Source: an uncultured Prevotellaceae bacterium (GTDB taxonomy: Bacteria; Bacteroidota; Bacteroidia; Bacteroidales; Bacteroidaceae). From it: a stretch of 40,125 nucleotides of DNA. Location: the NCBI GenBank assembly GCA_902762565.1, contig CACWOS010000022.1, forward strand, positions 1-40,125. Reading direction: 5' to 3'. The notes beneath the pieces are model-generated. The model worked only from the letters and a program-made list of their open reading frames with translations, ran no database searches and was not told the origin of the DNA. How positions within the stretch are numbered: the stretch's first letter is position 1; each line of letters starts with the position of its first letter. The translations under genes were made by a program, and so were the position numbers. Below are positions 8,585-25,092 of the stretch, piece after piece.

Positions 8585-8615
8585 TTGGTGGTTTGTTCCA
8601 AACCCTCTACCTTTG
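8585..8615 (+). promoter_or_regulatory. Promoter of the sulfur/encapsulin operon
   Basis: TTG (8585-8587), 20 nt, then TACCTTTG (8608-8615). The predicted leader to the ATG at 8646 is only about 25 nt, too short for a riboswitch. It therefore excludes the longer in-frame start at 8574. Confidence 0.7.
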
Positions 8616-8645
8616 CAGTCGGAAATAGCAAATAAAAAGAGAGAG

Positions 8646-9830
8646 ATGAGAAAACAGACCACAGCAATCAATACACCCTTCGTGCGACCAGATGTTTATG
8701 GCGCGCTGGCGGTTCCTATATATAATAATGTGTCGTTCGAGTTTAAGGATGCACAAGAGATGAGTGATGCCTTCTGCAACCGCATCAAGGCACCAGACTA
8801 TGCTCGCATCGCCAACCCTACGGTGACGCAGTTCGAGCAACGTGTGAAGGCTTTGACGGGAGCAGACCATGTGACGGCATTCAATTCTGGTATGGCAGCC
8901 ATCAGTACGGCACTGTTGGCTGTGGTTGCGCAGGGTAAAAATGTCGTGACGTCGCGCCACTTGTTTGGCAATACCTTGGCACTGATTAGTGGTACGCTGC
9001 TGAGGCTCGGTGTTAAACCTCGTCTGCGCGATCTGACCAATTTGGAGGCTGTAGAGCAAGCTATCGACGAGCAGACCGCTTGCGTGTTCTTGGAGATTGT
9101 GACGAATCCACAGTTGGAGGTGGCTGACCTCAAGGCCATCGCAGACATTGCCCATAAGAAGGGCGTCCCACTGATAGCTGACTCGACGGTCATTCCCTTT
9201 ACGGAGACAAACCTCAAGGCGTTGGGTGTGGACGTCGAGGTGGTGTCGAGCACCAAGTACATTTCTGGCGGTGGCACGTCGTTGGGCGGACTGATCATTG
9301 ATTACGGTACGTTCCCGCAGATAAACCAACGTGTGAAGTACGATCTGCTCATTAATCTTGGCGTATATATGACGCCACAGACGGCTTATATGCAGACCCT
9401 TGGACTGGAGACGCTCGATGTGCGTTACCAGCGACATGCTGCCAACACCTTGCAATTGGCGAAAGACCTGTCAGAAATTCCTGCCATCCATCGCGTCAAC
9501 TACATCGGTCTGCCTGATAACCCTTATTACAATTTGGCTCAACAGCAGTTTGGGTCGACGGCGGGGGCGATGCTGACTATCGATCTAGAATCAAAGAATG
9601 CTTGTTTCCGCTTCATGAACCGTCTGAAGCTGATACATCGGGCAACGAACCTCTTTGACAACCGTACATTGGCCATCCATCCTGCTTCAACCATCTTCGG
9701 ACTCTTCCCTGAGCGACAATTAGAACAGATGGATGTGCGACAGACAACCATCCGCCTGTCAGTGGGTCTGGAGTCACCCGAAGACTTGCTGTTGGATATC
9801 CAGCAAGCCTTGAAACTAGACGATTTATAA
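8646..9830 (+). CDS. Cys/Met-metabolism PLP enzyme, O-acetylhomoserine sulfhydrylase-like
   Basis: The 394-residue cytoplasmic enzyme belongs to the pyridoxal-phosphate family of cystathionine gamma-synthase, gamma-lyase and O-acetylhomoserine sulfhydrylase. Visible motifs are YARIANPT (about residues 52-59), 'FNSGMAAIS' (79-87, cofactor phosphate contact), the cofactor aspartate in 'IADST' (179) and the PLP lysine in '[10 protein letters not shown]' (K204). The YARIANPT and SGGGTSLGG segments are more like MetY-type sulfhydrylases than MetB, though the protein is somewhat shorter than typical MetY. It heads the operon and sits 19 nt before cysK. A role in fixing sulfide or protein-bound sulfur onto O-acetylhomoserine fits the context but is inferred; gamma-lyase activity is an alternative. 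Confidence 0.75.
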
Positions 9831-9849
9831 AAAATTCATCAATAAACAT

Positions 9850-10791
9850 ATGGGAAAAATAGCACAAGACTTAACTAACCTGATTGGCAATACGCCATTG
9901 TTAGAGCTGACAGGAACAGAACGGGAACTCGGACTGAAAGCACAGATTGTGGCTAAGTTGGAATTTCTGAATCCGCTTCGCAGCGTGAAGGATCGTACGG
10001 CGCTGGCCTTGATAGAACGGGCGGAGCGCAAAGGGCTCATTGGCCCCCCCACAGCCATTATCGAGCCAACATCAGGTAATACGGGTGTGGGATTGGCTTT
10101 TATCTCAGCCATTCGTGGTTATAAACTCATTTTGACGATGCCCGATGCTATGTCGGTAGAGCGTCGTACGCTGTTGAAGGCATTAGGTGCCGAACTGGTA
10201 TTGACGCCTGCCTACGAAGGTATGTCGGGGGCTATACGTAAGGCTCAGCAACTGGCCGAGGAGATAGGCGATGCCTATATTCCACAGCAGTTCGAGAATC
10301 CTGCTAATCCTGATGTGCATCGTCGGACAACCGCAGAGGAGATTATCCGCGATACTGACGGTCAGATCGACATCTTCGTAGCTGGTATTGGTACAGGTGG
10401 TACGATATCTGGTGTTGGTCAGGTATTGCGACAGCAGGACAAGAAGGTGAAGATAGTGGGTGTAGAGCCTTACTCATCATCGGTACTCAGCGGTGAAAAG
10501 CCCGGTCCTCACAAGATACAAGGAATTGGTGCTGGTTTCCAGCCTAAGACGCTCGACACAACAGTGTATGACGAGATTCTTCGTATCAAGGACGATGAGG
10601 CCTATGGCGTAGCTCGTCTGCTGGCTCGCAAAGATGGCGTCTTGGCAGGTATCTCCAGTGGTGCTGCAGCCGCTGCAGCCATCAAACTGGCACGTCGCCC
10701 TGAAAATGAAGGTAAACGTATTGTGGTGTTGTTGCCCGATACTGGTGAACGCTATCTGAGCACGGCGCTATATAATTTTGACAAGGAATAA
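9850..10791 (+). CDS. cysK: Cysteine synthase A (O-acetylserine sulfhydrylase)
   Basis: The 313-residue PLP enzyme forms cysteine from O-acetylserine and a sulfur donor. The PLP lysine is in [10 protein letters not shown] (K47). '[10 protein letters not shown]' (about 72-81) binds the substrate carboxylate, QFENPANP follows at about 143-150, and '[10 protein letters not shown]' (about 176-185) binds the cofactor phosphate. Length and motifs are normal for CysK/CysM. It lies second in the sulfur operon. Given the sulfur-carrier genes downstream it could use a protein thiocarboxylate as donor, as CysM does in Mycobacterium; the sequence alone does not settle this. Confidence 0.92.
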
Positions 10792-10795
10792 TGTT

Positions 10796-11275
10796 ATGGC
10801 TGACAATAAGAAACTAAGCATCATCGCTTTTAGTGGCGATTTCGACAAACTGACCGCAGTATTTACATTAGGTACGGGCGCGGCGGCGGTAGGCTACGAG
10901 GTGAACATCTTCTTCACCTTCTGGGGCCTCGACGCCATCAAGCAGAAGCAGGGCCGCTCGTTCACCGGCGGTAACTGGCTGACGAAGCTCTTCGGCTTTA
11001 TGATGGGTGGACTGAAAGTTACGCCTACGAGCCGTTTCAACTTCCTTGGTGCAGGCCCGAAGATATTCCGCTACCTGATGCGCAAGAACAACGTGGCGAC
11101 GCTCGAGGAACTGGTCGAGGCGGCCAAGGCGCTCGGTATCAACCTCTATGCCTGCGAGATGGCGATGCACGTGCTCGGCCTGAAGAAGGAGGACTTCATC
11201 CCCGAGGTGAAGGACGTGCTCGGCGTGGCATCGTTCCTCAATCTGAGCGAAGGCGGACAGACATTGTTTATTTAG
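10796..11275 (+). CDS. DsrE/DsrF-like sulfur-relay protein
   Basis: The 159-residue protein resembles the DsrE2/DrsH-like family: beta-alpha start 'KLSIIAFSGDFDKLTAVFTLGTGAAA', then 'VNIFFTFWGLDAI', a hydrophobic 'LFGFMMGG' and the conserved 'NLYACEMAMHVLGL' with Cys120 as the probable persulfide site. Such proteins pass sulfane sulfur between carriers, often beside TusA as here. I take the ATG at 10796, 4 nt after the cysK stop, not the in-frame ATG at 10778 inside cysK. From about 10865 codon usage becomes strongly C-ending compared with cysK. No membrane anchoring is certain. Confidence 0.82.
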   Translation: MADNKKLSIIAFSGDFDKLTAVFTLGTGAAAVGYEVNIFFTFWGLDAIKQKQGRSFTGGNWLTKLFGFMMGGLKVTPTSRFNFLGAGPKIFRYLMRKNNVATLEELVEAAKALGINLYACEMAMHVLGLKKEDFIPEVKDVLGVASFLNLSEGGQTLFI

Positions 11276-11305
11276 TTAAGAATTAAGAGTTAAGAGCTAA
11301 GAAAT
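11276..11305 (+). repeat. Heptamer spacer between dsrE-like and tusA-like genes
   Basis: Units AGTTAAG, AATTAAG, AGTTAAG, AGCTAAG run up to the start codon region. Each unit holds a TAA. Confidence 0.6.
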
Positions 11306-11530
11306 ATGGCAACAAAGGTATTAGACATCACGAAGGAGCACTGCCCGATGACTTTCGTCAAGACCAAGATTGAGCTCTCGAAGCTCCAGCCGGGCGACAT
11401 CCTGGAGGTATTGCTCGCAGAGGGGGAACCTCTGGACAATGTGCCGCGCAACGCTAAGGAGCAGGGCTACAACGTCCTTTCCGTCGAACACGTGGAAGGA
11501 ACAATACATAAGGTAACGATAAAAAAGTAA
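11306..11530 (+). CDS. TusA/SirA-like sulfur carrier
   Basis: The 74-residue protein has the TusA fold signature: 'LDITKEHCPMTFVKTKIEL' with Cys13 as the sulfur-carrying residue, then 'LQPGDILEVLLAEGEPLDNVPRNAKEQGY'. The usual CPxP is CPMT here, a variation common in TusA-like relatives outside tRNA thiolation. It normally takes sulfur from a cysteine desulfurase or DsrE protein, both encoded in this operon. It is cytoplasmic. Which partner it hands sulfur to is unknown; the encapsulated desulfurase or the ThiS-like carrier are plausible. Confidence 0.88.
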   Translation: MATKVLDITKEHCPMTFVKTKIELSKLQPGDILEVLLAEGEPLDNVPRNAKEQGYNVLSVEHVEGTIHKVTIKK

Positions 11531-11566
11531 AAAGGTAAAAAAGTAAAACATTAAAACTAAACGATT

Positions 11567-13006
11567 ATGGCAGATTCAAATCTTCAGCGCAGTGTGACCA
11601 CTGCCACCGCCAGAAGACTGGCAACCACCACTAAAACAGCCCCACAGATGGGCTCGATTACTCCGAGATTACTTCTTAAGTTATTGCCCTGGGTGCAGGT
11701 TAGTGGCGGCACGTTTCGCGTGAACCGCACGAAGGTCGAATTGAGAAAGAGTGAGCGTCTGCCCATTCAGTATCTGAATGGCGAACCATCGTTCTCTGCA
11801 AAGAGTCTGAAGGCGATTCCTCTATTCTCTGAGTTCGAGGATGATATTGTTGATCGTTTGGCTCGTTCGTTCGAGACCAAAGAGGTGGAAATCGGGAAAT
11901 TGTTTGTCGAAGAAGGTAAGGACAAGCAGAAATTCTTTATCGTGGCCAGCGGACAGGCTGAGGTCATCAGTAAAGGCCCTCATGGTGAAGAGTTGCGCAT
12001 AGCACTCTTGGGTGATGGCGAATACTTTGGTGAGGCTGACCTGCTGGATGATGCAGAGTCGACGGTGAGCGTCCGTGCTATCACACCGACAGTGTTTCTT
12101 GGACTGAAACTGAAGGAACTGGAGAAATTCATCAAGGAAGTTCCCGACTTCCGCGAAACCTTCGGGAAGGCCGTCGACAAGCAGCTGCGCCTGAAGGCTA
12201 CGGTCAACGATCACGGTGAGAAGCACATCGACCTGGTGAGTGGACATGAGGAGGACAATATCATCCCTGAGACCTATATCGACTACGAGGAGAATCCAAC
12301 GGAGTACGCGCTGAACACGCTACAGACCGTTGTGCGTGTACATACTCGTGTCAGTGACCTCTACAACAACCCCTATAATCAGTTGGAAGAACAGCTACGC
12401 CTCAGCATCGAGAGCATCAAAGAACGCCAAGAGTGGGAGTTAATCAACAACAAGCAGTTCGGTCTGTTGGCTGCTGCCAATCCAGCTTACCGCATTACGA
12501 CACGATACGGCGCACCCACACCCGACGACCTCGATGAACTGCTGTCGCTGGTATGGAAGGAACCTGCATTTTTCATCGCTCATCCGCGTGCCATCGCTGC
12601 CTTCGAGCGCGAATGTACGTGGCGTGGTGTGCCGCCTGTGACGACGGATCTTTTCGGCACTCGCGTGATTCTGTGGCGTGGTGTACCCCTGATTCCTTCA
12701 GACAAGGTGGAGGTAGAGGGACAGTACCTAACGGGCCGTGGTGTTGGTACCACAAAGATTATCCTCGTGCGTGTTGGCGAGAAAAATCAGGGCGTCATTG
12801 GTCTGCACCAGAGCGGTATTCCAGGTGAGATTGCTCCCTCATTGTCAGCCCGATTGATGGGTCTCGACAAGTTTGGTGTGGCTTCTTATCTGCTCACTAA
12901 GTATTTCAGTCTTGCTTCGCTCACCGACGATGCCATCGCTGTCCTTGAGAATGTAGAAGTAGGCTACTATCATGACTATCAGCACAGGAACAAAGTAGAG
13001 AAGTAA
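11567..13006 (+). CDS. Family 2 encapsulin shell protein with inserted cyclic-nucleotide-binding-like domain
   Basis: The 479-residue protein is recognisable as a family 2 (SrpI-like) encapsulin, the HK97-fold shell of a protein nanocompartment. After a Thr/Ala-rich N-arm (1-30) comes a shell segment (about 31-80). A domain like those that bind cyclic nucleotides follows (about 83-195, with 'IPLFSEF' and 'GDGEYFGEADLL'). The main shell domain runs from about 230 to the end, including 'SDLYNNPYNQLEEQLRLSIESIKERQEWELINN', 'PAFFIAHPRAIAAFERECTWRGVPP' and the C-terminal 'YYHDYQHRN'. In the nucleotide pocket the usual Arg after the GE motif is replaced by Ser/Thr (GEADLLDDAESTV, residues 155-167), so canonical cAMP binding is doubtful. 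The cargo desulfurase starts 3 nt after its stop. Confidence 0.9.
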   Translation: MADSNLQRSVTTATARRLATTTKTAPQMGSITPRLLLKLLPWVQVSGGTFRVNRTKVELRKSERLPIQYLNGEPSFSAKSLKAIPLFSEFEDDIVDRLARSFETKEVEIGKLFVEEGKDKQKFFIVASGQAEVISKGPHGEELRIALLGDGEYFGEADLLDDAESTVSVRAITPTVFLGLKLKELEKFIKEVPDFRETFGKAVDKQLRLKATVNDHGEKHIDLVSGHEEDNIIPETYIDYEENPTEYALNTLQTVVRVHTRVSDLYNNPYNQLEEQLRLSIESIKERQEWELINNKQFGLLAAANPAYRITTRYGAPTPDDLDELLSLVWKEPAFFIAHPRAIAAFERECTWRGVPPVTTDLFGTRVILWRGVPLIPSDKVEVEGQYLTGRGVGTTKIILVRVGEKNQGVIGLHQSGIPGEIAPSLSARLMGLDKFGVASYLLTKYFSLASLTDDAIAVLENVEVGYYHDYQHRNKVEK

Positions 13007-13009
13007 TTC

Positions 13010-14500
13010 ATGATTGATATTCAGAATATTAACGGATACGGTATACAGGATCCTGGGCTCGAACTGCTGAGGCAAGTAGCGCAGCAATACTGTCCCGAGG
13101 AGCTTCAGGCGGAACGGAAGGAGGTTGTTCCTGACGAAGGTCTGAACTTAGAGGCGCTGGCGTTTCTGTATGATGCTTTGCCAAAGCATCAAACGGAACA
13201 GCCCTCTTCGCTGCCCAAGGATGACGGTTTCGGCATCGGCATCCCTGAGACGCAGAAGCTGCGCGACCTGCACTACGAGGAGGCCGACACGCTTAACTCG
13301 GAGCAGATTAAGCGCGACTTCCCCGTGCTGAACCAGAAGGTGAACGGCCACGACCTTGTGTGGCTCGACAACGGTGCCACGACGCAGAAGCCGAACCTGG
13401 TCATCGACAAGATCTCGGACTATTACCGTAATTATAATTCGAACATCCACCGCGGTGCGCATACTCTTGCTGCCCGTGCAACGGATGCTTACGAAGAGGC
13501 CCGTGAAAAGGTGCAACGGTTCATCAACGCCGCCACCAGCGAGGAGATCATCTTCGTGCGTGGTACCACCGAGGGCATCAACCTCGTGGCGCAGACCTAC
13601 GGCCGACAGTTCCTGACGCCGGGCGATGACGTCATCGTTAGCGAGCTCGACCATCATGCCAACATCGTGCCCTGGCAGCGCGTGGCTCAGGAGAAGGGTG
13701 CCACACTGCGCGCCATCCCCACCGACCAGAATGGCGACCTGATTCTCTCGGAGTTCGAGCGCATCATCACGCCTCGTACGCGGTTCGTCAGCGTGGGCCA
13801 TGTGAATAACACCTTCGGCACCATCAACGATGTGCAGCGTATCATCGAGATTGCTCATGCGCACAACATCCCCGTGTTGATTGACGGTGCTCAGTCCATC
13901 GCCCACACGCCTGTCGATGTGCAGGCTTTGGGTGCTGACTTCTTCGTGTTCAGCGGTCATAAGATTTACGGCCCCAACGGCATCGGTGTGGTCTACGGTC
14001 GCAAGGAACTGCTCGATAAGATGCAGCCCTGGCAGGGTGGTGGTAACATGATTAAAGATGTCACCATCGAGCGCACTGAATACAATGTGCCACCCGCCCG
14101 CTTTGAGGCAGGAACGCCCAACGTCGCCGATGCTATCGGACTGGGTGCTGCCCTCGACTACGTGTCGCACATAGGTCTGCGCAACATTGAGCACCACGAG
14201 CACCAGTTGACGGAGTATGCCCGCGAGCAACTCGCCCAGATTCCTGGTCTGACGCTCATCGGCAATCCTAAGAACCGCGTTTCTGTCGTGAGCTTCGTCC
14301 TCGACGGTATCCCCGTGCCCGAGGTTGGCACCTTGCTCGACAAGGAAGGTATCGCCGTACGTGCCGGTCACCACTGCGCCCAGCCCGCCCTGCGCGCCCT
14401 TGGCTACGAGATGAGTGTCCGTCCCACCTTCGCTCTCTACAACACCCGCGAAGACGTGGACAAGTTAGTAATTGCAGTGAAAAAGATTATTGGAAGATAG
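13010..14500 (+). CDS. Encapsulin cargo cysteine desulfurase (SufS-like) with N-terminal loading extension
   Basis: The 496-residue PLP enzyme releases sulfur from cysteine as an enzyme persulfide and leaves alanine. Residues from about 96 on are a complete class II desulfurase: 'DFPVLNQKVNGHDLVWLDNGATTQKP', 'FVRGTTEGINLV', 'SELDHHANIVPW', the PLP lysine in 'VFSGHKIYGPNGIG' (K318) and the catalytic Cys456 in 'RAGHHCAQPALR'. The first ~95 residues are absent from ordinary SufS and are acidic with Gln/Pro-rich stretches, as in desulfurases packaged by family 2 encapsulins. The shell gene ends 3 nt upstream, so the two are surely cotranslated. Base use changes sharply near 13240, between extension and catalytic core. 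No sufBCD genes are nearby, which argues for sulfur storage or relay. Confidence 0.92.
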   Translation: MIDIQNINGYGIQDPGLELLRQVAQQYCPEELQAERKEVVPDEGLNLEALAFLYDALPKHQTEQPSSLPKDDGFGIGIPETQKLRDLHYEEADTLNSEQIKRDFPVLNQKVNGHDLVWLDNGATTQKPNLVIDKISDYYRNYNSNIHRGAHTLAARATDAYEEAREKVQRFINAATSEEIIFVRGTTEGINLVAQTYGRQFLTPGDDVIVSELDHHANIVPWQRVAQEKGATLRAIPTDQNGDLILSEFERIITPRTRFVSVGHVNNTFGTINDVQRIIEIAHAHNIPVLIDGAQSIAHTPVDVQALGADFFVFSGHKIYGPNGIGVVYGRKELLDKMQPWQGGGNMIKDVTIERTEYNVPPARFEAGTPNVADAIGLGAALDYVSHIGLRNIEHHEHQLTEYAREQLAQIPGLTLIGNPKNRVSVVSFVLDGIPVPEVGTLLDKEGIAVRAGHHCAQPALRALGYEMSVRPTFALYNTREDVDKLVIAVKKIIGR

Positions 14501-14503
14501 ATT

Positions 14504-14728
14504 ATGGCAAAGATTACAGTAAACGGAGAGGTGCAGGAGGTGCAGTTGCCCCTCAGCCTCACAGAGTTGATCAGACAGAACAACGTACAGCAGCCCGAAA
14601 TGGTAAGCGTTCAGGTGAACGACGACTTCGTGGACCGTACTGAGTGGGACGGCCTGCAACTGAAGGAAGGCGACAACGTTGATTTCCTGTACTTCATGGG
14701 AGGAGGGGATATAAAGTTTGAAGTTTGA
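14504..14728 (+). CDS. ThiS/MoaD-like sulfur carrier with a six-residue tail after Gly-Gly-Gly
   Basis: The 74-residue beta-grasp protein resembles ThiS/CysO-type carriers: 'MAKITVNGEVQEVQLPLSLTEL' and 'EGDNVDFLYFMGGG'. Carriers of this family become thiocarboxylated on a terminal Gly-Gly. Here GGG is followed by DIKFEV, and both the tail and the TGA stop are read out of the heptamer repeat that fills the downstream gap. The tail must be cut before activation, as is known for HcyS in Wolinella, where a JAMM protease removes the extra residue; such a protease is two genes downstream. With no thiG, thiC or moaE in the window, a role in thiamine or molybdopterin synthesis is less likely than cysteine or homocysteine synthesis. 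Confidence 0.82.
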   Translation: MAKITVNGEVQEVQLPLSLTELIRQNNVQQPEMVSVQVNDDFVDRTEWDGLQLKEGDNVDFLYFMGGGDIKFEV

Positions 14729-14797
14729 AGTTTGAAGTTTGAAGTTTAGAGTTTGAAGTTTGAAGTTTGAAGTTTGAAGTTTGAACATTGAAGATTG
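14714..14797 (+). repeat. Twelve heptamers (AAGTTTG) joining sulfur-carrier gene to E1 gene
   Basis: Eight exact AAGTTTG units and four variants (AAGTTTA, GAGTTTG, AACATTG, AAGATTG) fill the gap completely, starting within the last codons of the ThiS-like gene and ending six bases before the next ATG. Confidence 0.95.
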
Positions 14798-14803
14798 AAA
14801 ATT

Positions 14804-15613
14804 ATGATTGACTTTTCTGAAGAACAGATACAGCGCTATTCGCGGCACATCCTGTTGCAGGACGTCGGCGTGGAAGGACAAGAGAAAATCATGAACGCGC
14901 GTGTGCTCGTAGTGGGTGCCGGCGGACTGGGTGCTCCCGTGTCGCTCTACCTCGCTGCAGCAGGCATCGGCACCATTGGTATCGTGGATGCGGATGTCGT
15001 CGATTTAAGCAACCTGCAGCGTCAGGTGATCCATTTTACCAAGGACGTGGGCGTACCGAAGGTAAAAAGTGCTGAGGAGAAAATCAAGGCCATCAATCCC
15101 GATGTGAAGGTAGATACCTATTACGAGTTCCTCGACTCGTCGAACGCGCTGGACGTCATCAAGGAGTACGACTTCATCGTCGACGGCACGGACAACTTCC
15201 CCGTGAAGTTCCTCATCAACGATGCGTGCGTCATGGCGGGCAAACCCTTCTCGCATGGTGGCATCCTGCGTTTCAATGGTCAGACGTTTACTCACCTGCC
15301 CGGCACCGCCTGCTACCGTTGCATGTTCAAGGAACCGCCTCCCGTGGGTGCCGTTCCCACCTGTTCACAGGCAGGCGTACTGGGAGCCATCGCCGGTATG
15401 CTCGGCACCATTCAGGCCGCAGAGACCCTGAAGTATTTCACAGGCATTGGTGAACTGCTGACCAACCGTCTGCTTACCTTCGATGCCAAGACCATGCTGT
15501 TCCGCACGGTTCCCGTGAGGCATCGCGACTCGTGTGCCGTCTGCGGCAGCCACCCCACCATCGACCGCCTGATAGACTACGAACAGGCCGCTTGCGACCT
15601 TAAGCATAATTGA
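14804..15613 (+). CDS. ThiF/MoeB/HesA-type E1-like adenylyltransferase
   Basis: The 269-residue enzyme should adenylate the C-terminal glycine of the sulfur carrier using ATP. Visible are the nucleotide loop 'VVGAGGLGAP' (37-45), 'DADVVDLSNLQRQVIH' (62-77), the 'DGTDNFPVKFLINDAC' region (127-142), four zinc cysteines (C170, C173, C244, C247) and a candidate active-site Cys187 in 'PTCSQAG'. It lacks the C-terminal rhodanese domain of MoeZ/UBA4-type enzymes, so sulfur must come from another protein, plausibly the desulfurase, DsrE-like or TusA-like product. The ATG at 14804 is taken as start; a TTG nine bases earlier lies in the spacer repeat. Confidence 0.88.
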   Translation: MIDFSEEQIQRYSRHILLQDVGVEGQEKIMNARVLVVGAGGLGAPVSLYLAAAGIGTIGIVDADVVDLSNLQRQVIHFTKDVGVPKVKSAEEKIKAINPDVKVDTYYEFLDSSNALDVIKEYDFIVDGTDNFPVKFLINDACVMAGKPFSHGGILRFNGQTFTHLPGTACYRCMFKEPPPVGAVPTCSQAGVLGAIAGMLGTIQAAETLKYFTGIGELLTNRLLTFDAKTMLFRTVPVRHRDSCAVCGSHPTIDRLIDYEQAACDLKHN

Positions 15614-15622
15614 TAATTGACA

Positions 15623-16021
15623 ATGATTATTCCACAGACCATTATTGATGAATTGACAGCTCAGGCCCAGCAGGACGCACCTAATGAGACGTGCGGTTAC
15701 CTGCTGGGTACTAGCGGCCAGGAGGGCGACGTCGTGTCGGAGAACTACCGGATGGAGAATATCGACCACTCGCCAGAACACTTCTCCTTCGCCCCCAAGG
15801 ACCAGTTTGCTGCCCTGAAATACGCACGCAGCAAAGGTCTGAAGATTCTCGCCAATTGGCACAGTCATCCCGCCTCGCCCTCGCGTCCATCGCAGGAAGA
15901 CCTCCGTTTGGCCAACGACCCTACCATCCGTTACGCCATCCTCTCCCTCCACGAAGGCGTTCACCTCAACTCCTTCAAGATCCTGAACGGCGAGGTAGTG
16001 GATAAGGAAGTACACCTTTAA
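15623..16021 (+). CDS. JAMM (Mov34/MPN) metalloprotease of the sulfur-carrier pathway
   Basis: The 132-residue protein has the complete zinc-protease signature: Glu22 in PNETCGYLLG and 'HSHPASPSRPSQED' with H80, H82, S90 and D93. Small bacterial JAMM enzymes of this type (Mec in Mycobacterium, HcyD in Wolinella) either trim the sulfur carrier to expose Gly-Gly or release the newly made amino acid from it. Both jobs fit here, since the carrier has a tail after GGG and two sulfhydrylases are encoded upstream. The start is ATG 15623, 9 nt after the E1 stop. It is the last gene of the operon. Confidence 0.88.
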   Translation: MIIPQTIIDELTAQAQQDAPNETCGYLLGTSGQEGDVVSENYRMENIDHSPEHFSFAPKDQFAALKYARSKGLKILANWHSHPASPSRPSQEDLRLANDPTIRYAILSLHEGVHLNSFKILNGEVVDKEVHL

Positions 16022-16127
16022 AATTGAAAATTGAAAATTGACTTTGCCGAAAGGCGCATTGGTGGAGATAGAAGTGGTTGCTTTCGAAATACCATAGTTG
16101 TGGTATGCGAATGCCATAAATGTGGGA
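16022..16127 (+). promoter_or_regulatory. Gap between sulfur and uptake operons with several dyads
   Basis: A short heptamer run (AAATTGA) is followed by GCC-GAAA-GGC (about 16045) and a perfect ATACCA/TGGTAT hairpin (16089-16094/16101-16106), with a second overlapping dyad GGTAT...ATGCC. They lie 20-40 nt upstream of the -33 element and could be operators. No T-rich terminator for the sulfur operon is seen. Confidence 0.35.
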
Positions 16128-16197: not shown

Positions 16198-16377
16198 ATG
16201 AGAACAATGATGATGAACCTGCGAATGCGAATGTGGTGCTGCTGTTGCTGTAGCATGCATATGATGCGTAATGATAAGGAGAAACGAAACCAACACAATA
16301 TTAATATATATAACGAACAACAACAATATGAAAAAACCGGTATTCCACATAGCATTGTTCTTAGGGGTGCTGCTTAG
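16198..16377 (+). CDS. Upstream ORF with poly-Cys/Met leader peptide, overlapping the next gene
   Basis: The reading frame from ATG 16198 encodes up to 59 residues. Residues 1-23 contain nine Met, five consecutive Cys (residues 14-18, codons TGC TGC TGT TGC TGT at 16237-16251) and His21, in the order W-CCCCC-S-M-H-M-M. The frame ends at TAG 16375-16377, 50 nt inside the following gene, which is in another frame. It lies about 34 nt after the predicted transcription start. The composition is far from random and suggests a sensing leader peptide, for cysteine/methionine supply or for a soft metal such as copper. No strong Shine-Dalgarno is present, as is usual in Bacteroidetes. Translation is not proven. 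Confidence 0.6.
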   Translation: MRTMMMNLRMRMWCCCCCSMHMMRNDKEKRNQHNINIYNEQQQYEKTGIPHSIVLRGAA

Positions 16378-17215
16378 TCAGACAGCCATTAGTCAGGAAA
16401 AGATTTCGCTGCGCGTACCTAACTTTGTACGTCCTCTTGTAGAGAAGTGGGCCAGCGACTACCAGAAAAGCCACACAAACGTTGATTTCCAGTTTGTTTC
16501 AGGGAAATCGCAGGATAACAATTCCAACACACTATCGTTGGCGACCGATGCAGAAGCAGTGAGTTTTGCTCGCTTTGCTGTGCTTCCCGTCACCACGAAG
16601 AATTCTGTGGCCGACCACCTGATAGCCTCGCACCGCTTGAATGCCAAGAAGTTGCGTTCGCTGTTCTTCGTGAAGGACGAGTTGGACGAGACGCGAGAGG
16701 AGACAAAAGCCGAACAGCACGTTCATATCTATACAGGCAACAGCCAACAGTCGGCCTCGCGCCTCTATGCCTCGTATCTGAAGCAAGAGACCGCAAACTA
16801 CAAAGGCAAGAAGATTTCGGGCGACGACTCGTTTCTCACTACAGCCATCAGTCGCGATCCCCTGGGTGTCACCATCAATTCCTTATCCAATATTTTCGAT
16901 ATAGACAATCGTCAATTGAAAGCATCGCTGACACTGTTGCCTTTGGATATCGACAAGCAGGGCCGACAGACGTTGGAAAGCGGACGCTTGGATGACATCA
17001 TTATGCTGTTGGAACACTCACAGTACGATGAGATTCCCGTAGGTCGCGTAGGTTTTGCCTATCAACACAGCAACACCGCCATCAATGACTTCGTGGGTTG
17101 GATACTGACTACAGGTGTCAACGATCTGCACCACTACGGTCTGCTATCTCTGACTCAGAAAGAATTGGCAGCTCAGAAGCAGCGCGTAGTCAACAAGGAC
17201 TTAGCACAAAAATAA
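16328..17215 (+). CDS. Periplasmic substrate-binding protein, PstS-like
   Basis: The 295-residue protein starts at ATG 16328 with a signal peptide (MKKPVFHIALFLGVLLSQTAISQ). It then reads 'ISLRVPNFVRPLVEKWASDYQKSHTNVDFQFVSGKSQDN', the opening of a phosphate-type periplasmic binding fold. Later segments such as 'FARFAVLPVTTKNSVADHL' and 'HIYTGNSQQSASRLYASYL' also fit that superfamily. No ABC permease or ATPase genes are nearby. It is instead followed by susC/susD-type genes, so it may deliver or sense the imported compound in the periplasm. The ligand is unknown. The upstream frame from 16271 is rejected because it lacks a signal peptide at its start. Confidence 0.7.
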   Translation: MKKPVFHIALFLGVLLSQTAISQEKISLRVPNFVRPLVEKWASDYQKSHTNVDFQFVSGKSQDNNSNTLSLATDAEAVSFARFAVLPVTTKNSVADHLIASHRLNAKKLRSLFFVKDELDETREETKAEQHVHIYTGNSQQSASRLYASYLKQETANYKGKKISGDDSFLTTAISRDPLGVTINSLSNIFDIDNRQLKASLTLLPLDIDKQGRQTLESGRLDDIIMLLEHSQYDEIPVGRVGFAYQHSNTAINDFVGWILTTGVNDLHHYGLLSLTQKELAAQKQRVVNKDLAQK

Positions 17216-17250
17216 ACTTTAGCCATCATAAATACTTGTTTTAAAATGCG

Positions 17251-17282
17251 AGGAGCGGGCAACGTGACGGCCCGTTCCTTTA
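17251..17282 (+). terminator. Hairpin between binding-protein gene and susC-like gene
   Basis: AGGAGCGGGC (17251-17260) pairs with GCCCGTTCCT (17270-17279, one G-T pair), followed by only a short TTT. It is probably a leaky terminator or an RNA-processing site setting relative expression within the operon. Confidence 0.55.
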
Positions 17283-17298
17283 GAGAAGATTTGCGCTT

Positions 17299-20200
17299 AT
17301 GGGAAAAAGATTGTTTACACAGATTATACTGCTGGCAACGGCAACCATAGCTTTTGCACAGACCACTCTGACGGGTCGCATCACCGATGCTCGTACTGGT
17401 GAGCCTCTGATTGGTGCCACACTGGTACCTAAGTCGAGTAAGGAGACTGGTGCCGTGACGGATGCAGAGGGTAATTTCCGACTGCTGACCAAAAACAGGT
17501 TACCGCTGACGTTGAGCGTCGAGTATGTGGGCTATCGTTCACAGGAGGTTGACGTCTATGATGACTCGGAGACTATTGACATTCAGCTCATTGACAATTC
17601 CAACAAGCTCAGCGAGGTAGTGGTCGTTGGCTACGGCACTCAGAAGCGTACCCAATTGACGGGTAGCGTGACAACCGTTCGCGCTGAGGTGTTTGAAAAA
17701 AGTCTGCAGCCTACGCTCGATGGTGCCCTGAGCGGACAGGTGGCAGGTCTGAACGTGACAGCCACCAGTGGTCAGCCTGGTGCCGACAGCCAGATACGCA
17801 TTCGTGGCGGCAACTCTATCAATGCCTCGAACGAGCCTCTCTATGTTGTCGATGGGTTCATCTACTTCAAGGATGCCGCCCTGAATGGCACGGGTCTTGG
17901 AGCCATTGAAGGCAGTCTGAATCCGCTGGCTACCATCAATCCCAGTGACATCGAGTCTATCGAGGTGTTGAAAGACGTCTCGGCTACTGCGATCTATGGT
18001 TCACGTGGTGCCAATGGCGTCATCCTAATTACTACGAAGAAGGGTAAGTTGGGCGAGGGCAAGGTCAACATCAGCTACGGCTATAAGATTGGCGTGAGCC
18101 ATGTCAGCAAGAAGCTCGACCTGCTGGGTGCCTCGGAATGGGCCAAGTTGCAGAAGGACTTCTTTGACAACAAGGGCGGCTACACCGATGCCGACATCGC
18201 TACACTAGGCAAGGGTACTGACTGGCAGGATGCCGTGTTGCGTACGGCTACCCAGCAGACCCACGAGCTGAGCATCAATGGTGGCGGACAAAAGAACCGT
18301 TACGCTTTCTCGGCCAACTATACCAATCAGGACGGTATCGTCATCGGTTCTGGTTTCCAACGTTACAACTTCCATGTCAATGCCGAGTGGAAACTGAAGA
18401 AAGACCTGCACTTTGGTGTTAATGCCACCTACGGTCGCTCGAAGCAGAGCGGGCTGACCACGACCGAGGAACAGGTGTTCAACTCGTCGCCTTATTCGGC
18501 AGGCATTACCAATAGCTTTGTCTATGCCCTGCTGACACCGCCCGTCATTCCAGTATACAATGCCGACGGAACGTACAACTTCACCAATCCCTATGAGTAT
18601 GCCTACTTTGCCATTGGCGACCATGCGGCCAATGCCGTCTACGACCTGAAGGAGAGTGTGGCAGAGAACATCAACAACTATCTGCTCTCCAGCCTATGGG
18701 CTTCCTATCGCATTGGCCGTCTGACCGTGAAGGCTTCGGTGGGCCTGAACAGCGAGAAGTTGACGCAGAACTACTTCTCGGGAGCCTACACATCGCTCGG
18801 ACTGGCTACGCAGGGCATCGGCGGTGTGGGCAATCGTCAGACTGACGTGTGGCAGCAGGAATATACCGTTAGTTACAGTCACAACCTAAATGACAAGCAC
18901 TATATCGACGCATTGGCTGGCTATACCCGCCAGACACAGACATCCACCTATAGCGCCACTCGTACCAACCACTTCACCAATGAGGCTCTGAAACAGTATA
19001 ATCTGGGTGACGGTGCTAACGTCTATACACCGCAAACCGGCATCAGCGAGTCGTCGCTGAACTCACTGCTGGCTCGCGTCAACTATACTTTCCTTGGACG
19101 CTATAACGCTACGGCCACCTTCCGTGCCGACAACAGCAGCCGCTTCTCGGCAGGTAATCGTTGGGGCTACTTCCCTTCGTTAGGCCTGTCTTGGAACGTC
19201 GAGAAGGAGTCGTTCCTGAGTACCGTCCGCAGCATCGACTATCTCAAGGTACGCCTGTCCGCTGGTCTGGTGGGCAATCAGGAAATCAGCGATTATGCCT
19301 TCACCACCTCCTACGCTACAGGTTCGTATGCTGGCAGCAGCAGCTATTCGAAGCAGAATGCCGCCAACGACAACCTGAAGTGGGAAACCACAGCCAGTTA
19401 TAACCTCGGCGTCGACCTCGGACTCTGGCACGATCGCCTGAGCATCACGTTCGATGCTTACTACAAGAAGACCAGCGACCTGCTGTTGATCGTGCCGATG
19501 GGGTTCGCATCAGGCGTTACCACCCAGTTGCAGAATGTGGGCAATGTCGAGAATATGGGCGTTGAACTGTCGGCCAACGTAGCTCTCATCCGTCGTAAAC
19601 GCCTCTCGTGGACGCTTGGTGCCAATGTGGCTTACAACAAGAACGAGATTACCGACATGGGTACAACGGATAACGTCATCCAAGGTGCTGACAACCAGTA
19701 TATCCTGCATAAGGGCGAGTCGTTGGGTTCGTTCTACGGATTGAACTACCTCGGCATCGTACAACCTGGCGAGGATGTGAGCCAGTTGCCTACGGTTAAT
19801 GGACAGATCCCCAAGGTTGGCGACCTGAAGTTTGAAGATACCGATGGCAACCAACGTATCGACGGTAACGATCGTCAGATACTGGGTAGCATCCAACCCA
19901 AGCTCATCTATGGTTTCTCGACACAGCTGACGTGGCGTGGACTCGACTTCTCGGCATCATTTGCCGGCACCTATGGCAACAAGGTGTACAATGCTCTGGG
20001 CCGTCGTCTGGAATTGGTTGGTGACTCGTACAATGTGCTCAGCACGGTTGGTGAACGTCTGGCTAATATCGACTATCCGCTGTCTACCGTCAATGCCCGT
20101 CCCTTCTCGTATATCGACAGTCGTTATGTGCAGAGTGCTAGCTATCTGAAGTTGCGCAACGTCACCATTGGCTATCGCCTGCCATTGGCCAAGGCGTTCC

Positions 20201-20352
20201 CTGTAGACGTGCGTATCTATGCCACAGGCCAGAACCTCTTCACCATCACACCCTATAAGGGCTACGACCCCGAGGTGGCCAGCGGCACAGATGCAGGTGC
20301 CTATCCTTCGTCGCGCAGCATCGTATTTGGTATTAACTTAACATTAAAATAA
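17299..20352 (+). CDS. SusC/RagA-type TonB-linked outer-membrane transporter
   Basis: The 1017-residue transporter has a signal peptide (to about residue 20) and a carboxypeptidase-regulatory-like domain ('LTGRITDARTGEPLIGATLV', about 23-100). The SusC signature 'LSEVVVVGYGTQKRTQLTGSVTTV' lies at about 105-130, followed by the plug ('QIRIRGGNSINASNEPLYVVDGF', 'IESIEVLKDVSATAIYGSRGANGVILITTKKG') and a long barrel ending in 'VFGINLTLK'. It imports a ligand too large or scarce for porins, with the SusD lipoprotein encoded 49 nt downstream as lid. No polysaccharide-degrading enzyme is present, so the cargo is probably not a glycan; a peptide, sulfur compound or metal complex is possible. Confidence 0.93.
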   Translation: MGKRLFTQIILLATATIAFAQTTLTGRITDARTGEPLIGATLVPKSSKETGAVTDAEGNFRLLTKNRLPLTLSVEYVGYRSQEVDVYDDSETIDIQLIDNSNKLSEVVVVGYGTQKRTQLTGSVTTVRAEVFEKSLQPTLDGALSGQVAGLNVTATSGQPGADSQIRIRGGNSINASNEPLYVVDGFIYFKDAALNGTGLGAIEGSLNPLATINPSDIESIEVLKDVSATAIYGSRGANGVILITTKKGKLGEGKVNISYGYKIGVSHVSKKLDLLGASEWAKLQKDFFDNKGGYTDADIATLGKGTDWQDAVLRTATQQTHELSINGGGQKNRYAFSANYTNQDGIVIGSGFQRYNFHVNAEWKLKKDLHFGVNATYGRSKQSGLTTTEEQVFNSSPYSAGITNSFVYALLTPPVIPVYNADGTYNFTNPYEYAYFAIGDHAANAVYDLKESVAENINNYLLSSLWASYRIGRLTVKASVGLNSEKLTQNYFSGAYTSLGLATQGIGGVGNRQTDVWQQEYTVSYSHNLNDKHYIDALAGYTRQTQTSTYSATRTNHFTNEALKQYNLGDGANVYTPQTGISESSLNSLLARVNYTFLGRYNATATFRADNSSRFSAGNRWGYFPSLGLSWNVEKESFLSTVRSIDYLKVRLSAGLVGNQEISDYAFTTSYATGSYAGSSSYSKQNAANDNLKWETTASYNLGVDLGLWHDRLSITFDAYYKKTSDLLLIVPMGFASGVTTQLQNVGNVENMGVELSANVALIRRKRLSWTLGANVAYNKNEITDMGTTDNVIQGADNQYILHKGESLGSFYGLNYLGIVQPGEDVSQLPTVNGQIPKVGDLKFEDTDGNQRIDGNDRQILGSIQPKLIYGFSTQLTWRGLDFSASFAGTYGNKVYNALGRRLELVGDSYNVLSTVGERLANIDYPLSTVNARPFSYIDSRYVQSASYLKLRNVTIGYRLPLAKAFPVDVRIYATGQNLFTITPYKGYDPEVASGTDAGAYPSSRSIVFGINLTLK

Positions 20353-20401
20353 AACTAAACTTACACACAGTATTAACTAAAAGGTAAAAGGAGATTTAAG
20401 T

Positions 20402-22057
20402 ATGAAGAAGAATTTTTTATTCAGTGCCGCATTGGCAGCAACCCTTTCATTAGGATTCGTATCTTGCTCGAGCAGTAGCGATGATGCAGGTAGTAATAAT
20501 AATCAAGTGACAGACGAGAATGTCGTAGACGATGATGCCAGTGCCTTGGCGCTCGTCAACGGTGTCTATAGCCACTGGCAGCCCCTGTCGTCATCGTTCT
20601 CGTTCATCATCGAGCTGAACTCGAACAAACTCATATCCTTCGAGGGTGAGGAGAGCGAGGCCGGTCCTGTGAACAGCCGTTTCGAACAGGAACCCACCAC
20701 GTGGTATCAGGTGAAGATATTCAACCACCTGCTTCTCGGCATTGCTCAGGCTAATGAGGCCATCACCACCATCGACAACTCGCTGAAGGCCAAGAAGGTG
20801 ACGCAGTCGGGTTATAACGCCGCCGTCGGTAAGGCGAAGTTCCTGCGCGCCTTGGCTTACCTGAAGCTGGCCCAGTTGTGGGGTGAGGTGCCCGTATTCA
20901 CGGAGAATGGCGGTTCTACCACTGAGCGTCAGGAACTGAACGTTGTGTTCAACCAGATTGTCAGTGACTTCACAGAGGCCGAAGCCCTATTGAACGACTA
21001 TAATGGTGACCCGCGCGTTCCTTCCAAGCAGGCTGCTCAGGCTCTATTGGCTCGTACCTATCTGGTATGGGGTGACAACCCACTGACTGCAGCAGAGGTT
21101 CAGGCCATCGCCAATGGTCAGGCTGATCCTCAGTTCTCGAAAACAGACAGTCGTCTGGAGAAAGCTGTCGCGTATGCCGACAAGGTTATCAACAGTGGTA
21201 AGTTGGCCCTCGATCCAGAGTTCAACAAACTCTATGGCCGCGACTATGAGAGTAACAAGCGTGGCACCAACGAGCACCTCTTTACTATCGCCCACGATGG
21301 TGACAAGAATGATGCTCAAGGCAACCACCAGACGCACTGCTCATGGACTTTCCCATTCCTTAACGGTGAAAACAACAAAGGATTTAAGCAGAACCATACC
21401 GAAGTGGCCGACGACAATCTTTATGACGACTGGAAGGCTGAGCAGCCTAATGACAAGCGTCTAGCAGAGACCTACCTCGTTGAGGTGAAGAACCCTGAGG
21501 ACGGTCAGACTTACCACTACTACTCACCCGTCTATACGCCCATCAATGGTAAGGGTGTAGACCAGAGTTACGAGAATTCAGAGAATCTGGAGATTAAGCA
21601 GAACAGTGTCGACCGTATCGAGATTCGCTATGCCGAAGTGCTGTTGACGAAGGCCGAGGCTCTTGTGCAACTGGGTCGCAACACTGAGGCCGCTGAGCCT
21701 TTCAACCAGCTGCGCCGTCGTGCCGGCATCGCTGAGGTCAGCGCTCCCACTTTCCCCGAGATCAAGCGCGAGTGGGACTACGAATTCACTTACGAGCAAT
21801 TCTCTGTGTTGAACAGCTACCGCTGGAAGGACTTGATATCTTCTGTCAAGAAGGTTTCGGCCTACAAGCACTTCGCCGACGACTGGAAGACAGCCCTCGG
21901 CAACACCTACAACGCTGATCAGGAGGCCTACTTTACCAAGGTGCACAACCACCTGCGCGCCAAGTATAATAACATTCGTGGCAAGCACTATCGCCAGCCC
22001 ATCCCGACAGGCCTGAGCGGTGAGGCACTTGGTATTGCCCAGAACCCAGGATATTAA
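20402..22057 (+). CDS. SusD/RagB-type surface lipoprotein
   Basis: The 551-residue protein has a lipoprotein signal (MKKNFLFSAALAATLSLGFVSC, lipidated Cys22) followed by the Ser/Asp-rich sequence SSSSDDAGS typical of surface export. The SusD fold is shown by 'KFLRALAYLKLAQLWGEVPVFTEN' (about residues 141-164), 'AAQALLARTYLVWGD' and the C-terminal 'EIRYAEVLLTKAEALVQLGR' and 'IRGKHYRQPIPTG'. It caps the SusC-like transporter encoded immediately upstream. The ligand is unknown. Confidence 0.93.
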   Translation: MKKNFLFSAALAATLSLGFVSCSSSSDDAGSNNNQVTDENVVDDDASALALVNGVYSHWQPLSSSFSFIIELNSNKLISFEGEESEAGPVNSRFEQEPTTWYQVKIFNHLLLGIAQANEAITTIDNSLKAKKVTQSGYNAAVGKAKFLRALAYLKLAQLWGEVPVFTENGGSTTERQELNVVFNQIVSDFTEAEALLNDYNGDPRVPSKQAAQALLARTYLVWGDNPLTAAEVQAIANGQADPQFSKTDSRLEKAVAYADKVINSGKLALDPEFNKLYGRDYESNKRGTNEHLFTIAHDGDKNDAQGNHQTHCSWTFPFLNGENNKGFKQNHTEVADDNLYDDWKAEQPNDKRLAETYLVEVKNPEDGQTYHYYSPVYTPINGKGVDQSYENSENLEIKQNSVDRIEIRYAEVLLTKAEALVQLGRNTEAAEPFNQLRRRAGIAEVSAPTFPEIKREWDYEFTYEQFSVLNSYRWKDLISSVKKVSAYKHFADDWKTALGNTYNADQEAYFTKVHNHLRAKYNNIRGKHYRQPIPTGLSGEALGIAQNPGY

Positions 22058-22112
22058 TTGGTTATAGTTTATTGTTTAAAGTTTAAAGATATAACGTAGG
22101 AGGTTTACAGTT
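22058..22112 (+). repeat. Short heptamer spacer with an unusually strong ribosome binding site
   Basis: GTTTATT, GTTTAAA, GTTTAAA units are followed by TAGGAGGT (22097-22104), 8 nt before the ATG at 22113. Such a strong Shine-Dalgarno is unusual among these genes. Confidence 0.5.
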
Positions 22113-23063
22113 ATGAAGATACTCAAAAATTCCTTTCTTTCGGTTGTGGTAGTGCTCTTGGGCACTACCGTGACCTCCTGCAACAGCAACGACGACGGTG
22201 TGCAGGCAGGTATCGAGATTCCTGGTATCACAATCACAGACGATATTGACTGCTGCTCAGCAGAGGAGGCACTGCAGGTGTACCGTTTCTTGCAGACCGT
22301 CAAGATTGTGCCAGAGTTGTCGACCGTTATCGATGGCAAGTACAACGTATTTGCTTATACCAAGACGGGCGCTCTGCACACGGGCTATAACGACATCTAT
22401 TTCGTAGCCACCAAGCAGTCGACGGGCAACTATATCAAGAACTTCGATGTGACGAACCTCACGCCGCTGATGCACATGGTGAAGATGGATATGTATCACA
22501 GTACACCAGTGGGCGGTGCTGCCGAGAGTTTCAACGGTGCCTATTTGGCAGTGAAGCACACGTGGGTATCGCTCGTGATGAACACCAGTGACGCTGGCTC
22601 GTGGACACTATCATATGACGCACTGGTATTGGGCAAGACGGGCGGTATCGAGAAAAAAGATGTTGTGGTAAATGCTCTGCCCAACGGACAAGTGTGGCTG
22701 AAGTCGTTCAAGGCAGGCGACGACACCTATTACCTGTCGCTGGTAAACCCCAATGAATGGCAGACCGGCACGAACGGCATCCGCGCCTACGTCTCGAAGA
22801 AGAGCGCCAAGGCCACCACTCCCTATCTTATAGCTGAGAATTCCTTTACCATCGGCATCGACCCCCGCATGCCTGACATGGGTAACCATACGTCGCCTAA
22901 CAATACGGCACTCGTAAAACAAACCGATGGCAGTTATCAGGGCACTATTAACTTGACAATGACAGGTCTGTGGCGCATTCATCTGACCGTGAAGGACGCT
23001 GATGGTAACGTCGTGGCTGGTGGCGAGGAATTGAGCTCACTGTACTGGGATGTCACGATTTAA
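22113..23063 (+). CDS. Lipoprotein with a FixH/YtkA-like C-terminal domain
   Basis: The 316-residue protein has a lipoprotein signal (cleavage before Cys23, 'TTVTSCNSND'). I do not recognise the first ~210 residues by name; they include CC at 47-48 and a Met/His-rich 'PLMHMVKMDMYHS'. The last ~90 residues ('IDPRMPDMGNHTSP...GSYQGTINLTMTGLWRIHLTVKDADGN') resemble the YtkA/FixH-like domain, where the MPxMG and His residues suggest binding of a soft metal such as copper. It stands between susD and a TonB receptor that looks like copper receptors. Metal binding is inference from motif and context. Confidence 0.55.
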   Translation: MKILKNSFLSVVVVLLGTTVTSCNSNDDGVQAGIEIPGITITDDIDCCSAEEALQVYRFLQTVKIVPELSTVIDGKYNVFAYTKTGALHTGYNDIYFVATKQSTGNYIKNFDVTNLTPLMHMVKMDMYHSTPVGGAAESFNGAYLAVKHTWVSLVMNTSDAGSWTLSYDALVLGKTGGIEKKDVVVNALPNGQVWLKSFKAGDDTYYLSLVNPNEWQTGTNGIRAYVSKKSAKATTPYLIAENSFTIGIDPRMPDMGNHTSPNNTALVKQTDGSYQGTINLTMTGLWRIHLTVKDADGNVVAGGEELSSLYWDVTI

Positions 23064-23122
23064 GATGGATGATGTAAGAAGTAAGATGGATGATGTAAGA
23101 TGTAAGATGTAAGAAGTAAGGA
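23064..23122 (+). repeat. Heptamer spacer (GTAAGAT/GTAAGAA/GGATGAT)
   Basis: Seven-nt units fill the gap between the lipoprotein stop and the TonB receptor start, carrying TAA in the sense direction. Confidence 0.85.
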
Positions 23123-23125
23123 CGT

Positions 23126-25090: not shown

Positions 25091-25092
25091 GT

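Follow-up and report, generated by a model that had tools for sequence, protein, structure and literature searches.

The CysO-CysM-Mec system of Mycobacterium consists of a carrier, a JAMM protease and a cysteine synthase. The Wolinella pathway is cited as methionine synthesis via a protein thiocarboxylate in the available part of one paper (PMC6225789), and it is also cited in that of a second (PMC5764234). In the operon classification of Iyer, Burroughs and Aravind (2006), class 4e, for which Wsuc and Gmet are listed, comprises a ThiS/MoaD-like carrier, a JAB (JAMM) protease, an E1 without rhodanese, SirA/TusA, O-acetylhomoserine sulfhydrylase and, as a feature of its own, sulfite reductase with sulfate genes; the accessible portion of that text names no encapsulin or desulfurase there (PMC1779556). 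Andreas and Giessen (2021) counted 199 family 2B encapsulin operons with a cysteine desulfurase, in which a shell protein with a cyclic nucleotide monophosphate (cNMP)-type insert stands beside an N-terminally extended SufS-like desulfurase; the accessory genes named in the available text are serine acetyltransferase and rhodanese, and ThiF, MoeB, JAB, TusA, 'sulfur carrier' and methionine are absent from the main text (PMC8346489). In family 2A, the SrpI-CyD system consists of a shell without insert and an encapsulated desulfurase with the N-terminal motif L..LA..FF, and its main text, in the form available, contains neither ThiF nor TusA (Nichols 2021, PMC8049743). Here, we describe a nine-gene cluster in which the genes of two such systems, the encapsulin compartment and the thiocarboxylate pathway, are joined, together with evidence from relatives that the sulfur source is exchanged around one module. 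The cluster lies in a stretch of 40,125 bases (the window), which is one complete contig (CACWOS010000022.1) of the 3.39 Mb genome, in 113 contigs, of an uncultured Prevotellaceae bacterium (GCA_902762565.1). The initial annotation knew of no description of such a combination, and none was found in the literature searched, which covered few subscription papers.

Nine intact open reading frames (ORFs) were found on the forward strand, and each matched its expected family in Pfam and NCBIfam, in the order and at the positions first annotated (Table 1). The start codons of DsrE (an in-frame ATG), E1 and JAB were refined and are probably those given in the table. The DsrE2-like protein scored 68 bits with NF047629, below its cut-off of 210, TusA matched no NCBIfam model above its cut-off, and no rhodanese domain was matched by Pfam in E1. 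The Wolinella HcyS-HcyF-HcyD-MetY pathway has in common with the cluster a ThiS-like carrier with one or more residues after its glycines, an E1, a JAMM protease and a MetY of the kind of structure 3RI6. Unlike that pathway, the cluster encodes an encapsulin shell, a desulfurase, TusA and DsrE, and sulfite reductase is lacking both from the cluster and, by PF01077, from its genome (94% complete). It differs from CysO-CysM-Mec in that its CysK is a cysteine synthase A and that MetY is the better-kept partner.

Table 1 Features of the nine-gene cluster, with positions in the window.
Feature	Position	Strand	Basis
-7-like promoter element TACCTTTGC	8608..8616	+	Bacteroidetes type; motif match, weak on its own
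HcyS-clade MetY, PLP-dependent O-acetylhomoserine sulfhydrylase-like	8646..9830	+	PF01053, 308 bits
CysK, canonical cysteine synthase A	9850..10791	+	TIGR01139, 442 bits (cut-off 351)
DsrE2-like protein, probable sulfur relay	10796..11275	+	PF13686 (DrsE_2), 137 bits
TusA-like sulfur carrier	11306..11530	+	PF01206, 73 bits
Family 2B encapsulin shell protein with inserted cNMP-type domain	11567..13006	+	NF041163, PF19307, PF00027
SufS-like cysteine desulfurase with N-terminal extension, presumed cargo	13010..14500	+	PF00266, 501 bits
ThiS-like sulfur carrier, tail FLYFMGGG-DIKFEV	14504..14728	+	TIGR01683, 63 bits (cut-off 37)
E1-like adenylating enzyme (ThiF/MoeB-like)	14804..15613	+	PF00899, 270 bits, sole Pfam match
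JAMM protease (Prok-JAB)	15623..16021	+	PF14464, 89 bits

Residue conservation was scored in rows that had passed identity and completeness filters. The residues that we take to be catalytic in JAMM, E1, TusA, DsrE, desulfurase and MetY were present in all shell-locus rows, with one gap at one MetY position as the sole exception. These comprised Glu22, His80, His82, Ser90 and Asp93 of JAMM (61 of 61 rows, with a gap at the Glu in one of nine additional JAB rows), the Gly loop, Arg73, Asp130, Cys187 and four further cysteines of E1 (63/63), Cys13 of TusA (84/84), Cys126 of DsrE, numbered from 10778 (83/83), Cys456 and Lys318 of the desulfurase (79/79), and Lys204 of MetY, which binds pyridoxal phosphate (PLP), in 70 of 70 rows, one of which (L160) is a locus without shell. 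In the carrier, the three glycines were kept in 68 of 68 shell-locus rows and in 6 of 6 further rows. In the window they are followed by further residues that block the C-terminal glycines, and the number and kind of these residues vary between loci; among the sequences listed, only the carrier of L154 and the thiamine-type ThiS of L194 end at the third glycine. Glycines followed by a variable tail fit the need of a carrier that is activated by a protease.

A search of genome contigs returned 533 relatives of the shell, of which the best 80 were kept, and six more from a search of the order brought the set to 86 shell loci, some of them from a shared genome (L021 and L031; L025 and L045). Counts refer to the 46 loci with at least 4.5 kb before and at least 5.2 kb after the shell, the other 40 being left out. 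Within 9 kb of the shell, DsrE, TusA and desulfurase genes occurred in all 46 loci, MetY (at least 45% identity) in 43, ThiS in 40, E1 and JAB in 39 each, and CysK in 22; the complete set of nine was present in 16. The order of the genes varied. Where carrier, E1 and JAMM share the strand of the shell, they lie either downstream of it, as in the window, or upstream; in a third arrangement they are upstream and divergent. MetY came first or last. In loci from other families of the order (L011, L012 and L013) shell, desulfurase, TusA, DsrE, ThiS, E1, JAB and CysK occurred together in a different order, and in L015 (genome G064) ThiS was found at the shell locus with E1 and JAB not nearby. The 80 kept relatives are mostly named Prevotella, Prevotellaceae, Bacteroidaceae or Bacteroidales, many are titled rumen, reticulum, omasum or abomasum, and they include the named strains Prevotella aff. 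ruminicola Tc2-24 (L083), Prevotella sp. khp7 (L091) and Bacteroidales bacterium KHT7 (L042). The window bacterium is of Prevotella type, since its genus includes G758, which has the same coordinates as G295, the source genome of L083, and the rumen is probably its habitat.

Three genome samples were searched for the shell: 301 from the family, 295 from the order and 395 from the phylum. The search for the JAMM gene covered the family and order samples, and that for sulfite reductase (PF01077) all 301 family genomes plus a selection of 27. For JAMM, thresholds of 80 bits (order) and 79 bits (family) were chosen after viewing the lists, and weaker or longer-frame matches were left out, among others those of G900 (family) and of G079 and G127 (order); in the shell-less G900, two short JAMM pieces of 51 and 37 bits may stem from one fragmented gene. 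By identical coordinates, G295 and G758 are probable duplicates, as are G297 and G707. Among the 301 family genomes, the shell was found in 37, a short JAMM gene in 38 and both in 35 (Fisher's exact p = 8e-40, not corrected for kinship). In 31 of these 35 genomes the two genes were on one contig and in 30 within 5 kb, and the two shell genomes without JAMM are 78 and 86% complete. At the level of genera, in a table compiled by hand and likewise uncorrected for kinship, JAMM was present in 10/10 shell genera versus 2/20 others (p = 2e-6); in one genus, g360, shell and JAMM come from different genomes. In the order, JAMM was found in 6 of 7 shell genomes, the seventh being 65% complete, versus 6 of 288 others. 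A chance neighbourhood was rejected on the recurrence in 46 loci and on this co-occurrence across genomes; the joint conservation in relatives that the initial annotation had proposed to check was found in those loci and in the 35 genomes with shell and JAMM.

In the family sample, sulfite reductase was found only together with JAMM: PF01077 matched in 8/301 genomes, all 8 JAMM-positive (6 with and 2 without shell). The 38 JAMM genomes divide into 29 with shell only, 6 with both, 2 with sulfite reductase only and 1 with neither, so that shell or sulfite reductase accompanies JAMM in 37 of 38. JAMM and sulfite reductase lie no more than 5 kb apart in the two shell-less family genomes, and in the order sulfite reductase stands beside the module in four of the six shell-less JAMM genomes (L149, L150, L153 and L154), an arrangement that belongs to a published operon class of the Wolinella kind; of these four, L150, L153 and L154 retain window-like DsrE and TusA. 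Among the chosen genomes, PF01077 was found in 2 of 10 shell genomes searched (G064 and G297) and in 1 of 11 with neither shell nor short JAMM (G002). Judged from these gene contents, one carrier module occurs with shell and desulfurase or with sulfite reductase. Strict replacement of the one by the other is rejected, because 6 of the 37 family shell genomes retain sulfite reductase. L149 and L154 (by Pfam), and also L150 and L155 (by blast), have a two-repeat sulfite reductase whose C-terminus is a TusA domain; we know of no earlier case of this fusion. In a tree of 23 hand-chosen and hand-labelled E1 rows (15 shell, 5 sulfite reductase, 3 other; L156 counted as shell on the basis of its genome, whose shell gene is on a different contig, and L155 belongs to the shell-bearing genome G064), the E1 proteins of shell genomes formed one group (94/94, just below the starred level). 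From this single group, the shell may have joined the carrier module perhaps once.

The shell protein, first annotated as a family 2 encapsulin, could be narrowed to family 2B. It exceeds the 2B model NF041163 (567 bits, cut-off 400), contains the SrpI-like HK97 shell domain (PF19307, 376 bits) and has a cNMP-type domain (PF00027) at residues 106-191, between N- and C-terminal parts that align with SrpI (6X8M) in two pieces flanking the insert. Entry 9BJE, named a Crp/Fnr regulator, aligns to residues 7-466 (386 bits); since the alignment takes in the shell parts as well as the insert, we interpret it as a 2B shell. An assignment to family 2A was rejected on the insert and on the lower score of the 2A model (423 bits), both models being above their cut-offs. 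The genome has a single shell gene above cut-off. A regular expression for the cNMP-binding motif, an uninformative pattern, matched none of 94 shells.

The desulfurase carries about 100 residues before its catalytic domain. The motif LDNGATT was present in 78 of 88 desulfurases and was preceded by 97-156 residues in 74 of these, and the aligned extensions share two kept blocks, around CPE..L and around GFGIGIPETQKLRDLHYEEADTLN. The first block holds a pattern (LRQVAQQYC, residues 20-28 in the window) resembling the cargo motif of family 2A, for which the available text gives LARLANEFFS as loading motif (PMC8049743). The pattern was found in 80/87 desulfurases, including 2A examples and 2B examples from another class, and in 16/18 examples, versus 0.1 to 1.2% of shuffled N-termini of encapsulin-linked examples, but it was composed after the sequences had been inspected. 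This, together with the lack of the pattern in the desulfurases of L015 and L048 and a score of 727 bits, below the cut-off of 800, with the encapsulin cargo model NF041166 (a family 2A model, whose match excludes the first 84 residues), counts against the pathway proposed below. By analogy with family 2A, we infer that the SufS-like desulfurase is the packaged cargo of the 2B shell.

We consider it rather probable that the encapsulated desulfurase replaces or supplements sulfite reductase in a methionine-directed carrier pathway. Cysteine, from CysK or from uptake, would enter the 2B shell, where the packaged enzyme would convert it to alanine and a persulfide or stored sulfur, with packaging and storage modelled on the family 2A work. 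TusA and the DsrE2-like protein would carry the sulfur out of the shell; in E. coli, TusA receives persulfide from a desulfurase, according to the available text of PMC6225789. Following the Wolinella pathway, the JAMM protease would trim the carrier tail and expose the glycines, E1 would adenylate the trimmed carrier, and the carrier would gain sulfur as thiocarboxylate. MetY would then couple the carrier-bound sulfur to O-acetylhomoserine, and JAMM would free homocysteine for methionine. Overall, sulfur from cysteine would reach methionine without cystathionine as an intermediate, and the protein shell would serve as its reservoir. The parts, their presumably intact active sites and their conserved linkage are evident from sequence; packaging, sulfur flow and product are what we infer. 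The proposal in the initial annotation that the compartment is the sulfur source stands as the simplest reading, on linkage and because sulfite reductase adjoins the same module in some shell-less relatives.

It is possible, but unlikely, that the carrier pathway uses free sulfide and that shell and desulfurase form a separate, co-regulated unit for detoxifying cysteine and storing sulfur. The Wolinella pathway draws its sulfur from sulfide, sulfite reductase neighbours the module in the four shell-less order genomes named above, and thiS, E1 and JAB are transcribed divergently in many loci. Moreover, among the six family genomes with both shell and sulfite reductase, JAMM lies 11-12 kb from sulfite reductase in two (G707 and G732), with the shell on another contig; in the remaining four, JAMM is near the shell and sulfite reductase elsewhere. 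Against this reading, TusA and DsrE, persulfide carriers by family, accompany the shell in 46/46 loci, 29 of 38 JAMM genomes have a shell and no sulfite reductase match, and the E1 proteins of shell genomes form a single group.

As to the product of the carrier pathway, which the initial annotation had given as cysteine or homocysteine, the evidence points to the latter. The best solved relative of the window MetY is 3RI6, which we take to be the Wolinella enzyme (342 bits, runner-up 234), and the same holds for a second MetY type that lies downstream of the desulfurase in other loci (348 vs 249). In a midpoint-rooted tree of 47 PF01053 proteins, which carries a long-branch warning, the 3RI6-like enzymes formed a clade of 15 (100/100, stem 0.94) apart from canonical MetY. 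Two observations favour homocysteine: the window MetY groups with 3RI6, and MetY is found in 43 of 46 loci versus 22 for CysK, an ordinary cysteine synthase A. Furthermore, with cysteine as the presumed sulfur donor, cysteine would be an unlikely product and homocysteine the likely one. Hence, the cluster pathway, as predicted from these genes, most likely makes homocysteine.

That CysK instead uses the carrier thiocarboxylate with O-acetylserine to make cysteine, in the manner of CysO, we regard as quite improbable. CysK adjoins the carrier gene in L011, L012, L013, L015 and the shell-less L154, a gene with weak serine acetyltransferase matches is present in L011, with its cluster in 11 loci, and G055 has shell and module without a MetY of the 3RI6 clade. 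CysK is nonetheless not of the CysM type, for which the CysO-CysM route was rejected: it scores 286 bits with TIGR01138 (cysM), below the cut-off of 394, and passes that of TIGR01139 (Table 1), and the solved structures that match it best carry the name cysteine synthase A or O-acetylserine sulfhydrylase. It is also the less constant partner, and a pathway that turned cysteine sulfur back into cysteine would be futile.

For homocysteine synthesis, a predicted MetA-type homoserine acyltransferase of presumed acetyl specificity is present in the genome of the window, as in 9/10 genomes. Its three PF01053 proteins all lie outside a clade of about 380 residues that we presume to be of cystathionine type. 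As far as PF01053 proteins go, this would be consistent with a requirement for some further way of turning cysteine into methionine.

Several observations weigh against the proposed pathway from encapsulated desulfurase to methionine, in addition to those on packaging and the positions of CysK and MetY given above. The two other PF01053 proteins of the genome both exceed the O-acetylhomoserine sulfhydrylase cut-off (canonical MetY), so that the genome also has a sulfide route, and cysteine made by CysK from sulfide to feed the desulfurase would be a costly loop unless storage or regulation matters. MetY of the 3RI6 clade occurs without JAMM or shell in G165 (L159) and beside a PatB/MalY-like gene, identified by eye, in G229 (L157). 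In the stretches fetched for shell-less module loci, it was found in L154 only, plus L155 of the shell genome G064, and not in L149, L150, L151 or L153. In G064, E1, JAMM, MetY and sulfite reductase are grouped about 20 kb from the shell locus. To these are added the retention of sulfite reductase in six shell genomes, the family genome G722 with JAMM alone, and the lack of a PF01077 match in the shell-less JAMM genomes G144 and G243 of the order.

It is very improbable that the carrier is a SAMP-like ubiquitin-like modifier, conjugated and released by E1 and JAMM, with the sulfur genes as partners in regulation; E1 does match the SAMP E1 model (337 bits) and JAB the desampylase model (64 bits), but both scores are below the cut-offs (450 and 130), and the recurring partners are sulfur genes. 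Least probable of all is a cofactor set (thiamine thiazole or molybdopterin) adjoining an encapsulin operon: although ThiS exceeds the thiS cut-off, E1 exceeds the MoeB subfamily cut-off (NF004281, 278 bits over 266) and, in another class, the shell operon of L192 and L194 lies near ThiG- and ThiH-like genes (by eye), the partners here are a JAMM protease and MetY, and the 30 Pfam-scanned window proteins, to which this search was confined, include no ThiG or molybdopterin synthase.

Of the single promoter first annotated for the cluster, a -7-like element upstream of MetY could be located (Table 1), of a type that we take to be that of Bacteroidetes, but the -7 pattern combined with an upstream TTG at a single fixed spacing had no match upstream of 8646. 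Elements of the TACCTTTGC type number 11 in the window versus a mean of 4.9 in shuffles, and 1 of 100 shuffles reached 11. A terminator scan gave 6 sites in the window versus a mean of 7.7 in shuffles; both forward-strand sites (9068 and 15012) were intragenic, and none lay between genes. The gap between ThiS and E1 is a tandem array of about 12 copies of AAGTTTG (14714-14799), and shorter AT-rich repeats lie in or at two further gaps (11520-11556 and 16020-16041). At Rfam gathering thresholds, one tRNA and nothing else was found.

In 36 of 86 loci, a LuxR-type regulator (GerE domain; cluster of L021:14713-15351) lies close to the shell. It was rejected as a member of the system, because matches, many of them weak, occur in 27 of 27 genomes with or without shell; in the shell-less G165 and G239, relatives lie near MetY genes. 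Downstream of the cluster, a small Met- and Cys-rich ORF (MRTMMMNLRMRMWCCCCCSMHMM...) at 16199-16378 follows a TACCTTTGC element (16151) and precedes a transporter-type operon, and may be a sulfur amino-acid attenuator. Met/Cys-rich leaders were seen in 13/17 loci by a score of our own, without control, and they precede an LRR16 homologue in L051, L057, L060, L063, L064, L071, L072, L075, L077, L080, L091 and L093. The RNA around the leader folded no better than shuffles (z +0.86). The operon itself (16328-26277) encodes a secreted binding-protein-like product (no Pfam match), SusC, SusD, a YtkA-like protein, a TonB-receptor-like protein of 654 residues (no Pfam match) and a sodium:dicarboxylate-type symporter, and it may take up a sulfur compound, because homologues recur beside the shell in several loci. 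In another class of the phylum, a short peptide with a run of cysteines precedes the 2B shell operon in L192, L194 and L195 (G414, G466 and G547), and the operon in L192 and L194 holds DUF4395, MetY, LuxR-type, CysK and serine acetyltransferase-like genes (partly by eye).

For the sulfur of desulfurase encapsulins, a sink, namely a protein carrier plus MetY, can here be read from gene linkage. We regard as evenly balanced the broader proposal that the protein organelle is a dedicated methionine sulfur reservoir, its desulfurase loading a protease-activated ubiquitin-like carrier with the help of TusA and DsrE, and that this route arose once in Bacteroidales, when an older thiocarboxylate operon with a sulfite reductase gained a shell in addition to that enzyme or in its place. 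The system occurs in named Prevotella strains (L083 and L091) and should thus be testable in culture. If true, the proposed pathway would give family 2B desulfurase compartments a physiological role and would constitute a cysteine-to-methionine route without cystathionine. It would also reveal a modular design, in which one thiocarboxylate module is fed by a sulfite reductase or by a protein organelle.

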